DNA of 35,646 nt, taken from positions 1 through 35,646 of IMG/VR virus record IMGVR_UViG_3300007346_000092; one strand, given 5' to 3'. Position numbers and translations under genes: made by a program. The notes beneath the pieces were generated by a model that worked only from the letters and a program-made list of their open reading frames with translations, was not told the DNA's origin and made no database searches. How positions within the stretch are numbered: the first letter of the stretch is position 1; every line of letters starts with the position of its first letter. The DNA is from a virus. Of this stretch, positions 4,201 through 33,457 are shown piece by piece.

Positions 4201-6986
4201 AGGTCGGCGTCGGCGCCGGCCAGTTCGTCGGCGGATCGTCTGCCCGACACCACCGCCTCCTCCGCCCGCAGCCCAGCCTGCTTCGCCAACTCCCGGGCGC
4301 CGCGGCGGTACTCGGCAACTCGCGCGTCGATGATGCCCTGGGCCTCGTTGCGGGCCGCGTAGGCAGCCTTCCGCGCATCCGACCGAGACAGCCACGACTC
4401 GCCCACCTTGATGCTTGGGTTGCCCTCGGCCTGCGCCTCCTCCACCCGCTTGAGCAGGGCGTTGGCCTCGGCGATCTGAGCCGTCTCGGCAGCAGACTCC
4501 GCGATGGCGCGCGCCTCGCCCTGGGCGATCAACTCCCGCTCGACGACCTGCTGGCTCGACTGGCGCAGAGCCCGAACCTTCGCGCGTGCCTCCTTGACGA
4601 CATCGCCCCGGGGCCGACCGGCGGCCGACATCGAGGCGACAGACTCGTCGAAGGCGCGCAGGGCCTCGTTGGCGCCCTCCACCTCGCCCTGGGCGTCAGC
4701 CAGTGCCTGACGGGCGGCTGCCAGTCGCTGGGCCTCCGGGCCGCCCGTCGGCAACTGACCACCGGCAAGAGCCTCCTCGATCTCCCGCAGGCCCGACACG
4801 GCGGCCAACTCCTGCTCGGTCGCAAGGTCGAGAAACCCGTGCTCGAGCACGTCCATCGCCGCCCGCCGCTCCGACGCACTGCGGGTCGTTCGCTGCAGCG
4901 TCTCCAGCACGCGCGCCCGGACCACGCCCTGCATGGCCTTCCGGGTCGCGTCCCGCTTCCGCAGGCGCTCGGCCGCCGCGAAGGACGCCGGGTGCCGGTT
5001 CGCCGCCCGACCGCCGCGCTGCAGCGTCGGGGTGCTGTCCGGCCGACCCAGCGTGTTGACCTGGGTGCGGACGAAGTCCCACGGCCCGAGCACCTCGTCC
5101 GGCAGCCGCTGGGCGAGCAGCACCTGGGCCGCGAACCCGGCCGCGTCGAGGTCGGAGATGATCTGCGCGTCGGCGTCGGTCGCCTGCCGGGTCACCCAGC
5201 GGGCCTGTCGGTCGGCGACGCCGGTCGGGCGGGCCTGTTCGCCGCGCCGCAGCTGGCGCTTCACGGCCTCACGCGCCGCCGCCCGGCCCGCCTCAGGGAG
5301 GCGCGCAGCCTCGTTCATCAGCCGCACGCCGAGGTTTGCCTGCTCGGTCAGGAACGTGTCGACCGCAGCCTCGTCGCCCTCCTTGACCAGTCGGGCGTAC
5401 TCCTTGCGGGCGCCCCGCATCGCCGGCCCGTCAAGCACCTCGTCGGCGAGGTCCGCGTACAAGTCCACCTTGGCGTCGGGCGTCAGCACCATGCGGCCGT
5501 CCGGCCCCAGGGCCAGGGCCTCCGGTCGCACCAGAAGGCCCGTCGTCACCACGCCGCGCGCAGCGTCCGTCCGTAGTGCCTGCTCCCACACCTCGTCGGC
5601 CACGTCGTCGTGCAGCGCGCCCCGCAGATGCTGATGCAACTCGAGGTGCTCTGGCGCGCGCAGCAGGTTCCGGTACTCGCCCTTCCACGCCGCATCGACA
5701 GACTGGACGAACGCCGTCGTCGCGGCCCGCTCGGCGTCGATCTGCGCCCGGCCCGACAGACCCTCGCCCGCCTTCGCGATCTGCGACCGGACGATGTCGT
5801 CGCCCTGCTTCGTCAACTTCACGCCGGCCGCGACGGTCTTCGTCGGGTTCAGCAGGTTGAAGGGGCTGATCGCCGCCTCGCCGGCAAAGTCGAGAGCCTG
5901 CAGACCGCCGACGGCCCCGGCGTCCTTCGCCTCCTCGGACGCCCGCATCGCGTCCCGCCACGCCTCCTTCGCCTCGGTCGTCGACCCGTGCAGCAGCAGG
6001 TTCGCCAGGGCCTGCTGCGCCCCCACGGCTCCGTACCCGACGTCTGTGGCCGCGCGCGCCGACTCCCCGACGAACAGGTCCGCCAACGACTCGGCGTTCT
6101 TCACCGCGTCCCGCAGGGCCAGCGTCCGCTCGTCAGACTCGCCGCCGGTTCCGAGCACCACGTCCGACAGCCCCATCGGGTCGGAGGTCGACGCCAGGCC
6201 GGCGCCAACGACGCCGCGCAGCTTGTCGAACGCGCCGCCCATCATCAGGGCCGCGGCGCGCTTCTGGCGCATGTCCTTGAGGGCCTCGGCCGTGGTGCCA
6301 AACGACTGGACGTAGGCGACCATGTCGCGCAGCACCTGGCCGCCGGGGGCCTTGTCCTCGTAGTTCTGCAGCAACATCCCGCTCAGGCGCTCACGGTCGG
6401 CGGCGCCCAGCCCCATCGGCTCGTCGTTCTCCAGCGCCGTCCGCCGCGTGTCCCACAGCGTCCGCATCCACGCGCGCGTCGGGCGGTCGACGAGCTTGTC
6501 GAACGCCTCCCCGAGCGCCGAGACGCCGGTCATGATGTACCCGGACTCCTTGCTCGCCTTCCGCACCTCGTCGTGCAGCCCGGCGAACTCCATGAGCTCG
6601 ACCAGCCGCTCGTTGTCCTCGGCCATCTCCTCGGGGGTGCGGCCAGGCGTCGACGCCAAGGCCGCGTACTCGTCCCACATCTCGATGACCCGCGGGAGCT
6701 TCTCGGGAGGCACGCCGCGGAACGCATCTTGGCCCAGCGAGCGGAGCTCCCGCTGGAAAGGCATCAGGTCTGGCTCGAGCGCACCCCAAAGCAGGTCGTC
6801 GAACGGATCCGCGCCAGCAGGCACTGCTTCATCTGGCCGGTCGTCGGCAGGGGCTGCTGTGGACAACTCACTGGACAGGACATCGAACGGATCGACGGCA
6901 TCGACCGCAGACGTCGCAGTTGGCGCTGCCAACGTCTCGGCGAGTTCGTCGAACGGGTCGACTCCAGTGGCCTGCCCATCCGCCAT
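1281..6986 (-). CDS. Giant internal virion (DNA ejection) protein, 1901 aa
   Basis: The largest gene here. Residues 1-65 are acidic and contain DPFD three times (10-13, 32-35, 60-63). Residues about 740-990 are Ala/Glu/Arg-rich and coiled-coil-like. Two glycine-zipper segments (about 1456-1492, GGPAGGMLGAMTGASAGG, and about 1524-1560, GAVIGSAVGAPAQGAALGAA) look able to insert into or span a membrane. The C-terminal part, with RPLSFFYTWSAGNLRFQ, looks globular. Size, coiled coil, glycine zippers and position after the tail genes fit the internal core proteins that short-tailed phages eject to conduct DNA across the envelope. No lytic transglycosylase or protease motif is clear. The start ATG at 6986 overlaps the preceding stop as TGATG, so translation is probably coupled. 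The assignment is by architecture, not sequence match. Confidence 0.8.
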   Translation of the reverse strand: MADGQATGVDPFDELAETLAAPTATSAVDAVDPFDVLSSELSTAAPADDRPDEAVPAGADPFDDLLWGALEPDLMPFQRELRSLGQDAFRGVPPEKLPRVIEMWDEYAALASTPGRTPEEMAEDNERLVELMEFAGLHDEVRKASKESGYIMTGVSALGEAFDKLVDRPTRAWMRTLWDTRRTALENDEPMGLGAADRERLSGMLLQNYEDKAPGGQVLRDMVAYVQSFGTTAEALKDMRQKRAAALMMGGAFDKLRGVVGAGLASTSDPMGLSDVVLGTGGESDERTLALRDAVKNAESLADLFVGESARAATDVGYGAVGAQQALANLLLHGSTTEAKEAWRDAMRASEEAKDAGAVGGLQALDFAGEAAISPFNLLNPTKTVAAGVKLTKQGDDIVRSQIAKAGEGLSGRAQIDAERAATTAFVQSVDAAWKGEYRNLLRAPEHLELHQHLRGALHDDVADEVWEQALRTDAARGVVTTGLLVRPEALALGPDGRMVLTPDAKVDLYADLADEVLDGPAMRGARKEYARLVKEGDEAAVDTFLTEQANLGVRLMNEAARLPEAGRAAAREAVKRQLRRGEQARPTGVADRQARWVTRQATDADAQIISDLDAAGFAAQVLLAQRLPDEVLGPWDFVRTQVNTLGRPDSTPTLQRGGRAANRHPASFAAAERLRKRDATRKAMQGVVRARVLETLQRTTRSASERRAAMDVLEHGFLDLATEQELAAVSGLREIEEALAGGQLPTGGPEAQRLAAARQALADAQGEVEGANEALRAFDESVASMSAAGRPRGDVVKEARAKVRALRQSSQQVVERELIAQGEARAIAESAAETAQIAEANALLKRVEEAQAEGNPSIKVGESWLSRSDARKAAYAARNEAQGIIDARVAEYRRGARELAKQAGLRAEEAVVSGRRSADELAGADADLAALSDELGGDLRKHRDVQAALREARDSFGANQKAVEVELQGAREAYRRAESARALEGLSRTERLRVERILKNPDLHSESAMRRALRDFDEEAQGRVLEAARFLKAFFDDYYKQLRRDGYLTEHDKEAFLTRVAIGDYVPALVRESETAALKAMFGGQMPKFRDPVKFRAHAGTIKLRNESKRRAVARRLVLHRAQVGEYGDAFVGRKDAQLTQALQDAGIDVADEAGRIAKEELADWEWLETDPLLIAERYAAKTDSTLATNRYLLDMIDLFPQGRRFGQEMVAARKVPGDRARSEAELEVAARAERAGFKRVSTSNYFQAVLGSRKARKYPTELLDYARGLIADGRSTLEVAEKLAEKGVNLTRGELGALKALENQPLFLPAPVVDYINFRSSSAPKWMADIADVVGASWGGLHSLLKSFSTIAAMAHISVNVIGNLYSIGQTTLRGLANPVNHTKAMLISLVEPGSPLMKRQVKLGRYEMSIEEWQDFFNEVAITEAGASTGFLEEQVGAGAAREGGLKDTTTRVATAALGGVLGFSAGGPAGGMLGAMTGASAGGLLNRRRAVGRAVPEWDEFLARVKEDPVTALKGLQLGTRGVGTVTGAVIGSAVGAPAQGAALGAAIGGGATPGYMKMMAGVNQAAESQARATLAVALLEQGVLLDDVPMQVAWALRDYSNLNELERNVLRPLSFFYTWSAGNLRFQAKWALENPREARMVAAMFNGLYNMQFSEDELRQIPENYRHNLLLRVAGTRVMRMRGNPWDDLVELFRTDGMVPVGALTRMHPAILSGVEAWTGHSFYFDRPIEDMTNGAYYKNAPPALKKWLGVYSMPAEVFDEEGPTGEQGVKWKIDRPDRAWLLSKLPGTRLLAILQQAVAESYAPAYVETGEAGPPVSGAERLATIVGGQRISDVGLGTADAARRVERKFEELLLEELARKNPDIVRQFRQLRPEAFDEPDDPENYIEILRSVLGE

Positions 6987-26018: not shown

Positions 26019-26094
26019 TGGTGGGTCCCCTGGAACTCGAACCCAGGACCAACCGCCCAAGAGGCGGGTGCTCTACCGACTGAGCTAGGGACCC
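26019..26094 (-). tRNA. tRNA-Lys (CTT anticodon), CCA encoded
   Basis: Read on the minus strand this is 76 bases with a perfect 7-bp acceptor (GGGTCCC/GGGACCC), D stem GCTC/GAGC, T stem CTGGG/TCCAG with one G-T pair, T loop TTCGAGT and an encoded ACCA end. Position 34-36 gives CTT (Lys, codon AAG). Odd points: positions 37-38 are GG instead of the usual AA, and the first anticodon-stem pair (27-43) is a C-T mismatch. It is one base from the next tRNA. Confidence 0.9.
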
Positions 26095-26095
26095 G

Positions 26096-26164
26096 TGGAG
26101 CCAGCGGGTGGAGTCGAACCACCGCCGCCAGGGTTATGAGCCCCAGGGCCGACCGTGCGCTGGC
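26096..26164 (-). tRNA. tRNA-Met-like (CAT anticodon) with truncated D arm, CCA encoded
   Basis: Read on the minus strand it is 69 bases, with a perfect acceptor (GCCAGCG/CGCTGGC), a perfect T stem (GGTGG/CCACC), T loop TTCGACT and encoded TCCA. The anticodon loop is CTCATAA, with a stem containing GGG/CCC at 29-31 and 39-41, the initiator tRNA signature. However, position 1 pairs with 72 (initiators have a mismatch). Only 10 bases lie between position 9 and the anticodon stem, so the normal D stem-loop is missing. It may be a degraded gene, an unusual functional tRNA or an Ile(CAT) type. Confidence 0.75.
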
Positions 26165-32464: not shown

Positions 32465-32769
32465 ACCCCCTGCGCAACCTCCGGCCCGTGGACTGCACCC
32501 CTGATTTGTTCCAGGCCGCCTGTGAGTCGCTGGGCTTCGGGCTCGAGGGCGACTTGACGACGACCGCCGTGGACCGGGCGACCATGTACCGGTGGGTCCG
32601 CGCGGGTGCTCGCGGCGTCGGCGTCCGCCCGGCAACCCTGACGGACGAGTTCTGGGTGGTCCTGCTCGACGGGCGCGAGCGGGTCGAGTTCTCGACGCTG
32701 GGCGAGGCCCTCGACCACGCATTGATGCGGGTCGCGGAGCGCACGCGGCGGGGGGTGCGCCGTGCCTGA
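32461..32769 (+). CDS. Unknown DCTP-motif protein, copy 2 (102 aa)
   Basis: ATG at 32461. LRNLRPVDCTPDLFQAACES and the later WVVLLDGRERVEFSTLGEAL mark it as a paralogue of the 31184-31507 protein. The last residues (ERTRRGVRRA) are basic. The end overlaps the recombinase start by 8 bases, so the two are probably co-translated. Confidence 0.65.
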   Translation: MNPLRNLRPVDCTPDLFQAACESLGFGLEGDLTTTAVDRATMYRWVRAGARGVGVRPATLTDEFWVVLLDGRERVEFSTLGEALDHALMRVAERTRRGVRRA

Positions 32770-33457
32770 CCTCCCCTGGGCCGCCTACGCCCGCGTCTCC
32801 AGCCGCCACCAGGCCGAGTCCGGGCTGGGGCTGGACGACCAGTGCGGCAAGCTCCGAGCGTGGGGCGCACTGCACGGGCACGACCTCGAGCTCTTTGTCG
32901 ACGCCGGCGAGTCGGGCAGCAACCTCGACCGGCCCGAACTGCAGCGGGCCCTCGACGGCGTCCGCTCTGGCCAGTTCGCTGGCCTAGTCGTCGTCAAGCT
33001 CGACCGGCTGTCCCGCTCTGTGCGGGACCTGCTTGGCCTGATGGACCTGTTCACCGACGACGGCGGCCCCGACTTCGCCAGCGTCACCGAGTCCTTCGAC
33101 ACGTCCACGCCGATGGGTCGGTTCGTGCTGACCATCATGGGCGCGATGTCGCAGTTGGAGCGCGAACTCATCAGTGAGCGCACCAAGGCGGCGCTCGCTG
33201 TCAAGCGGAGCCGGGGCGAGTTCACCGGCGGCGGGGTGCCCTACGGCTACCGCAACGTCGACGGCGTGCTCGAGGTCGACATGGCCGAGCGGTTCGTCGC
33301 AGAGGAGGCGGCCCGCCTGTACACGTCGCAGCAGTCCTACCGCAAGGTCGGCGCCAAGCTGCAGGCGTCTGGGCTGCGGCCCCGTACCGGCAGCTGGCAC
33401 CCCGAGAAGGCCAAGGCCGCCGTCATCGCCGGCCGCAAGTTCCTGGGAGGAGACTGA
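32762..33457 (+). CDS. Small serine recombinase (resolvase/integrase family)
   Basis: 231 aa from a GTG at 32762. The catalytic domain has Arg11, nucleophile Ser13 (YARVSS) and D81-R82-x2-R85 (KLDRLSRS), followed by the E helix TPMGRFVLTIMGAMSQLERE (116-135). The C-terminal part (VPYGYR, ending KVGAKLQASGLRPRTGSWHP) is a short recombinase-type DNA-binding domain of about 80 residues. Large serine integrases of phages are 450 aa or more, so this is closer to resolvases or to a shortened integrase. It recombines short DNA sites by a serine-DNA intermediate. The sites it uses are not evident here. Confidence 0.9.
   Translation: MPDLPWAAYARVSSRHQAESGLGLDDQCGKLRAWGALHGHDLELFVDAGESGSNLDRPELQRALDGVRSGQFAGLVVVKLDRLSRSVRDLLGLMDLFTDDGGPDFASVTESFDTSTPMGRFVLTIMGAMSQLERELISERTKAALAVKRSRGEFTGGGVPYGYRNVDGVLEVDMAERFVAEEAARLYTSQQSYRKVGAKLQASGLRPRTGSWHPEKAKAAVIAGRKFLGGD

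Follow-up and report, generated by a model that had tools for sequence, protein, structure and literature searches.

The window, by which we mean the whole 35,646-base virus record analyzed here, probably carries a real two-tRNA phage unit, in which a gene for a tRNA with a CAU anticodon and no D arm is followed by one for tRNA-Lys(CUU). The first of these would belong to a dispersed, initiator-derived group of phage tRNAs in which the D arm has shrunk from ~20 to 11–17 nt while the elbow is kept, with the window copy as its most derived member. Absence of a D arm is the textbook exception seen in animal mitochondrial tRNAs. The record comes from a tailed phage with an SU10/P22-like portal, a terminase, and head genes. 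It also encodes a serine recombinase at 32762–33457 on the plus strand (Resolvase domain; PHROG integrase/invertase), and the phage may therefore be temperate. Its terminase is ~25% identical to those of named phages, and a terminase search in IMG/VR returned the same phage only.

An earlier note on this DNA, made by reading the sequence, had placed a CAT-anticodon tRNA at exactly the positions found here, the encoded CCA included. Read 5′ to 3′ on the minus strand, from 26164 to 26096, the gene runs through the segments in the order of Table 1, and all parts of a tRNA are present bar the D stem. The GGG/CCC anticodon stem and the CTCATAA loop had been read correctly, as had an acceptor paired at 1–72, unlike that of initiators: all seven acceptor pairs are Watson–Crick, with a closed G1:C72, as are all five pairs of the T arm. 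The anticodon stem has 5 bp and begins with two wobbles, U27·G43 and G28·U42, before reaching GGG/CCC. The discriminator U73 is a feature absent from the first reading. The claim that there is no normal D arm holds, but the 10 bases said to replace it do not: 12 nt lie between the acceptor and the 5-bp anticodon stem, of which 8 (CACGGTCG) are left unpaired in the minimum-energy fold. In this fold the anticodon stem is extended by pairing of 26149–26141 with 26133–26124, with a bulged C at 26127, at −33.0 against −23.6 kcal/mol. The minimum free energy itself is unremarkable (z −1.54) and uninformative at the GC content of the molecule. The tRNA-Lys(CUU) lies in the same direction, 1 nt 3′ of the CAU tRNA, and the two are likely co-transcribed; a promoter and terminator scan around the CAU tRNA found none.

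Table 1. Segments of the CAU tRNA gene and its neighbor, in window coordinates
Feature	Position	Strand	Basis
D-arm-less CAU-anticodon tRNA, 69 nt including CCA	26096–26164	−	sequence; ARAGORN -mt; covariance model R1; near-identical contig
Acceptor stem 5′ strand, GCCAGCG (G1, C2, C3...)	26158–26164	−	7/7 Watson–Crick with 26100–26106
D replacement CACGGTCGGCCC, 12 nt; G18G19-like GG at 26154–26153; D stem at most 2 bp	26146–26157	−	
Anticodon stem 5′ strand, TGGGG (G29–G31)	26141–26145	−	pairs with 26129–26133
Anticodon loop CTCATAA; anticodon CAT at 26138–26136	26134–26140	−	sequence
Anticodon stem 3′ strand, CCCTG (C39–C41)	26129–26133	−	sequence
Variable region GCGGC, part-paired in the extended-stem fold	26124–26128	−	sequence and minimum-energy fold
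T arm GGTGG-TTCGACT-CCACC; canonical T54 T55 C56	26107–26123	−	sequence
Acceptor stem 3′ strand, CGCTGGC (C72)	26100–26106	−	sequence
Discriminator U73 and encoded CCA	26096–26099	−	sequence
Normal tRNA-Lys(CUU)	26019–26094	−	bacterial-mode ARAGORN; Rfam tRNA, 57.7 bits

Bacterial-mode ARAGORN and Rfam at its gathering threshold found only the adjacent tRNA-Lys in the window and missed the CAU tRNA. A permissive Rfam run matched the latter weakly to tRNA-Sec (23.2 bits; the gathering score is 47), an identity ruled out by the CAU anticodon and the absence of a long variable arm. ARAGORN, which the first reading had proposed as a check, gives an answer that depends on its mode: the metazoan mitochondrial mode (-mt) calls exactly these bases, 26164–26096, as a "D-loop mtRNA-Met(cat)" of the D-replacement type. 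Indeed, with acceptor, anticodon, and T stems and a loop for the D arm, the molecule fits a D-replacement-loop tRNA in the ARWEN sense. Because the same mode makes two further, apparently false calls in the window, we treat this call as supportive rather than decisive. A covariance model (R1), built from eight other viral tRNAs with the window left out, has this locus as its sole match in the window (47.6 bits, E 2.8e-8). Normal-D initiators are matched by R1 as well, so that the model marks initiator-like CAU tRNAs generally and not mini-D forms alone. A strict short-D descriptor open to any anticodon, which leaves out the window tRNA because of its two anticodon-stem wobbles, gave 0 matches in 2.9 Mb of shuffled sequence versus 33 in real loci; together with the R1 match, this rules out a chance origin.

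Full-D relatives, which the first reading had named as a sign of sequence error, were looked for. A second contig of the phage from another assembly (L060/L121) has 2 differences in 22,022 bases relative to the window and contains the same 69 nt, short D region included, and many unrelated phages have short-D CAU tRNAs of their own; a sequencing or assembly error is thereby ruled out on the available evidence. Two other ways of reading the locus also fail. Shifting the acceptor by one base, which gives a T1×T72 mismatch, leaves one C too many between the T and acceptor stems and destroys the CCA end. A lysidine-type tRNA-Ile2 (CAU) needs A73 and C4:G69, where the window tRNA has U73 and A4:U69. 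On the sequence evidence, the locus is a real tRNA gene.

With bacterial initiator tRNA-fMet the molecule shares the CAU anticodon, the CTCATAA loop, the G29–G31/C39–C41 pairs, and a canonical T loop. It differs in lacking the D arm, and with it a D stem to hold the purine 11:pyrimidine 24 pair of tRNA-fMet, and in closing G1:C72, where the initiator has no Watson–Crick 1:72 pair. The formylase determinants are an open 1:72, A73, G2:C71, and C3:G70, with A73 also a nearly strict Met determinant (PMC9976931). Against the last three of these the window tRNA has U73, C2:G71, and C3:G70, so that the last alone fits. With G1:C72, C2:G71, and U73, it fails the known determinants for Met charging and formylation, and a standard initiator role is unlikely because these are lost. 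The closed G1:C72 and U73 thus argue against a standard formylated initiator, and the window copy is probably an altered tRNA that still presents the initiator anticodon arm but no longer acts as such an initiator.

The missing D arm, in contrast to this acceptor end, is a recurrent phage feature, since CAU tRNAs with short D regions turn up in numerous unrelated phages. A first scan of viral contigs with the pattern GGGGCTCATAACCC, in which D length was not a criterion, gave at least 51 distinct tRNA-like sequences with GGG/CCC; among these listed matches, 17 of 51 have a D region of at most 17 nt. A second scan targeted short spacing and brought the combined list to 46 entries among the matches listed, two of which (L228 and L238) are host initiators in the wrong register and were dropped from later counts. 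Altogether, the matches listed from the viral scans include ~44 different CAU tRNAs whose D region spans 12–17 nt, and many of the mini-D copies sit inside phage arrays of otherwise ordinary tRNAs. Erythrobacter phage vB_EliS-L02, which has been cultured, encodes one at 71233–71302 of OL955261.1. This mini-D CAU tRNA, confirmed by BLAST, belongs to an array with at least seven members and is missing from the annotation, which lists no features in the surrounding 3-kb stretch.

A typical mini-D arm consists of a 4-bp hairpin with a 3–5 nt loop, 0–2 nt before it, and ~3 nt after it. Among 43 short-D cases chosen by their acceptor, anticodon, and T arms alone, 28 can form a hairpin of 4 bp or more in the D region, as against a mean of 4.1 and a maximum of 12 when the D regions are shuffled (2000 trials). 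In a gap-free alignment of eight sequences, all four D-stem pairs change on both sides and every cell is paired; sliding the partner by one base lowers the pairing to 51–57%. The orthologous arrays of L028 and L108 (Gly-Asn-His-Asp-Met, ~90% identity) show the same at close range. Their tRNA-Gly and tRNA-Asp are identical, whereas the mini-D tRNA-Met differs at 12 of 73 positions, with two D-stem pairs and one T-stem pair compensated; at 1:72, C1×A72 stands against A1×C72, both sides changed and still unpaired.

The elbow contact appears to persist, because a D-loop GG goes with T55 and an AG with G55: among the matches listed, the combinations are GG/T55 in 30, AG/G55 in 12, and exceptions in 2 (Fisher p=8e-9, indicative only, as the rows are not phylogenetically independent). 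This suggests that an A18–G55 pair replaces G18–U55 in the G55/AG tRNAs. T loops with G55 (TGC, AGC, GGC, CGC) and a D-loop AG were seen in the mini-D tRNAs of L019, L047, L103, L131, L160, L180, L206, L212, L224, L293, and L303. Among the fetched loci, mini-D arms are also found on a few tRNAs whose anticodon is not CAT, at L142 (TCG), L033 (CCG, GCC), and L144 (CTG); the compact form thus extends beyond CAU.

At the acceptor end, counted over all 46 entries listed, the two misread host initiators included, 1:72 is non-Watson–Crick in 38 (UU, CA, CU, AC, AA, CC, GA, and others), whereas every one of the 46 has a pair at 2:71. In a sample unselected for the acceptor, among the matches listed, G2:C71 occurs in 16 of 17 short-D tRNAs, C3:G70 in 15 of 17, and A73 in 14 of 17. 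With the formylase and Met determinants kept in this way, the bulk of the mini-D group looks like working initiators.

The window tRNA has in common with the mini-D group (L028, L108, L038, L126, L141, L172, L181, L202, and others) the GGG/CCC stem, a D region of at most 17 nt (here 12 nt) shortened on its 5′ side, and a GG opposite, and paired with, T55 (CACGG and TTCGACT). The D hairpins of the group, however, have 3–5 bp, and mostly occur with an open 1:72 and A73, whereas the window tRNA can form 2 bp at most, below the 3 bp that define the group, and differs from nearly all relatives in G1:C72, C2:G71, and U73. The combination of features that the earlier note called unusual is therefore distinctive in part: the closed G1:C72 and U73 set the window copy apart, most short-D relatives having an open 1:72, but GGG/CCC with CTCATAA is common in phage CAU tRNAs among the matches listed. 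Judged from sequence, the window copy is the extreme and most derived member of the short-D group.

The D-less subset is small, comprising the window, L095/L213, the L055 group, L007, and L163; L055, L007, and L163 may belong to it, but their folds are poor when judged on energy only. The L095/L213 tRNA, from an otherwise different phage, has CACGGCGGGCC where the window tRNA has CACGGTCGGCCC. It resembles the window tRNA in an 8-nt CACGG-N-N-G linker (CACGGCGG versus CACGGTCG), an extended anticodon stem with a 3′ bulge, a canonical T arm, and an encoded CCA. It differs in keeping C1×C72, G2:C71, and A73, and in a terminator-like GC hairpin followed by TTTTT just downstream. A scan for short-D relatives with a GCCA acceptor returned the same phage only, and BLAST searches of named phages, with the window tRNA or the joined 5′ halves of mini-D tRNAs as query, gave no full-length relative of the window tRNA.

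Among known systems, the metazoan mitochondrial D-armless tRNAs (e.g., tRNA-Ser AGY) are like the window tRNA in having a connector for the D arm and in being called by the same ARAGORN -mt mode. The window tRNA is unlike them in being a phage gene, outside any organelle, with a canonical T loop, an encoded CCA, and another anticodon. Like the mini-D relatives, tRNA-Pyl has a compact core, in which the D loop is small and the D stem follows the acceptor after 0–1 nt. In M. alvus tRNA-Pyl, as in the window tRNA, the anticodon stem is extended and one base of its 3′ strand is left unpaired; tRNA-Pyl differs from the latter in its CUA anticodon, 3-nt variable region, and G73, and the M. barkeri form is without the GG and without the T55 C56 motif (PMC7609411). 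Phages and initiators are not mentioned in this review of non-canonical tRNAs (PMC7609411). Our search of the open-access literature, with subscription papers and preprints outside it, found no report of a mini-D or D-less phage initiator-like tRNA. Provisionally, then, D-armless animal mitochondrial tRNAs and compact tRNA-Pyl D arms were known already (PMC7609411), and the phage initiator-like forms are new here.

Copies in cellular genomes appear to be rare. Across 59 Planctomycetota genomes (58 plus the seed) there was one new 73-nt copy, within a 13-tRNA array. In the seed planctomycete assembly (L224 = G005, contig 69), a tandem mini-D CAU pair lies at 4923–4994 and 5017–5088; it adjoins sulfatase and DUF1501 genes and is missed by bacterial-mode ARAGORN. 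In Pseudomonadota, 1 of 299 genomes has the mini-D pattern, which is the seed Halomonas itself, and none of the 298 others does. Mini-D CAU tRNA-like genes with the T loop AGCGTTA were also seen in Verrucomicrobia assemblies (L250, L293, L303, and L329), that of L303 in an array with seven other tRNAs. Most matches of the genome-contig scan were normal initiators matched inside the D arm or N-masked copies, and were discarded; N-masking within tRNA genes mimics a D-arm deletion at L258, L322, and L323.

The earlier note had offered a variant initiator, a decoy, or a decaying gene, and these were the right candidates to name, although perfect stems, the CCA, and the linkage to tRNA-Lys weaken a simple decay. 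That the gene descends from a short-D phage initiator and is in the early stages of decay, its stems not yet eroded, is an unlikely account, if the best placed of the alternatives. The D hairpin, A73, G2:C71, and the 1:72 mismatch, kept in most relatives, are all gone in the window, and the anticodon stem has two G·U wobbles. On the other hand, 12 of 12 acceptor and T-stem pairs are Watson–Crick even though the acceptor differs from the NGCRGG type of the group, which indicates that the acceptor has changed with compensation. Decay would also have to spare the encoded CCA and the 1-nt spacing to tRNA-Lys, and an unrelated phage (L095/L213) has a nearly identical D linker together with C1×C72 and A73.

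We consider it rather improbable that the molecule is a decoy, a stable scaffold whose initiator-like anticodon arm absorbs anticodon nucleases, VapC-type or other, with no need of charging. The intact GGG/CCC and CTCATAA beside lost charging and formylation determinants would suit this role, and the literature describes both the cutting of initiator tRNA by VapC and a counter-defence role for phage tRNAs (PMC10264068 and references therein). An encoded CCA and a perfect acceptor would, however, be superfluous for a decoy, as would the 1:72 mismatch that most relatives keep. About as improbable is an elongator-type or non-Met tRNA. Its closed 1:72 would suit EF-Tu, and its acceptor end is glycine-like, with G1:C72, C2:G71, and U73 beside the U73, G1-C72, C2-G71, and G3-C70 of bacterial tRNA-Gly (PMC9976931); but 3:70 is C-G and not G-C, the CAU anticodon lacks the C35 and C36 of Gly, and GGG/CCC is not needed by elongators. 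Finally, an attP-borne host tRNA fragment, with a real 3′ half and a 5′ half of chance sequence, is known to give rise to spurious tRNA genes (PMC9897764) and is exemplified among the fetched loci by L335, L339, and L091, whose tRNA-fMet-like 3′ halves with unrelated 5′ sequence are as expected for attP sites of phages integrating at initiator tRNAs, but such a fragment, with its unpaired acceptor, is ruled out for practical purposes by the 7/7 pairing of the window's 5′ strand with the 3′ acceptor strand, by the covarying 5′ halves of its relatives, and by the complete tRNA-Lys that bacterial-mode ARAGORN finds 1 nt away.

Returning to the reading we favor, of a two-tRNA unit with an initiator-derived first member, the window transcript would be processed from a tandem precursor with tRNA-Lys. 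It would adopt an L-shaped fold held by GG–T55C56, in which an 8-nt GG-bearing linker and the extended anticodon stem stand in for the D arm. Across the group, the simplest reading is initiator supply during infection: mini-D tRNAs would be charged and formylated, and would start phage translation when the host initiator is limiting or attacked. It is plausible, though conjectural, that D-arm shrinkage removes features recognized by host nucleases or modification enzymes. More tentatively, and with somewhat less than even confidence, we propose that phages of many lineages share a class of functional minimal-D initiators, with a co-varying elbow (G18–U55/A18–G55), that evades host recognition of the normal initiator; the window tRNA would represent its D-less branch and may have left Met/formyl identity behind.

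Default tRNA annotation misses the window, L095, L213, L055, and L224 copies, and phage initiator tRNAs are therefore probably under-counted. If true, a recurrent class of reduced-D and D-less phage tRNAs would reveal that the bacterial initiation machinery can make do with very little of the D arm, would provide small natural tRNAs for engineering, and would point to phages protecting their initiation against defence systems that target tRNAs.
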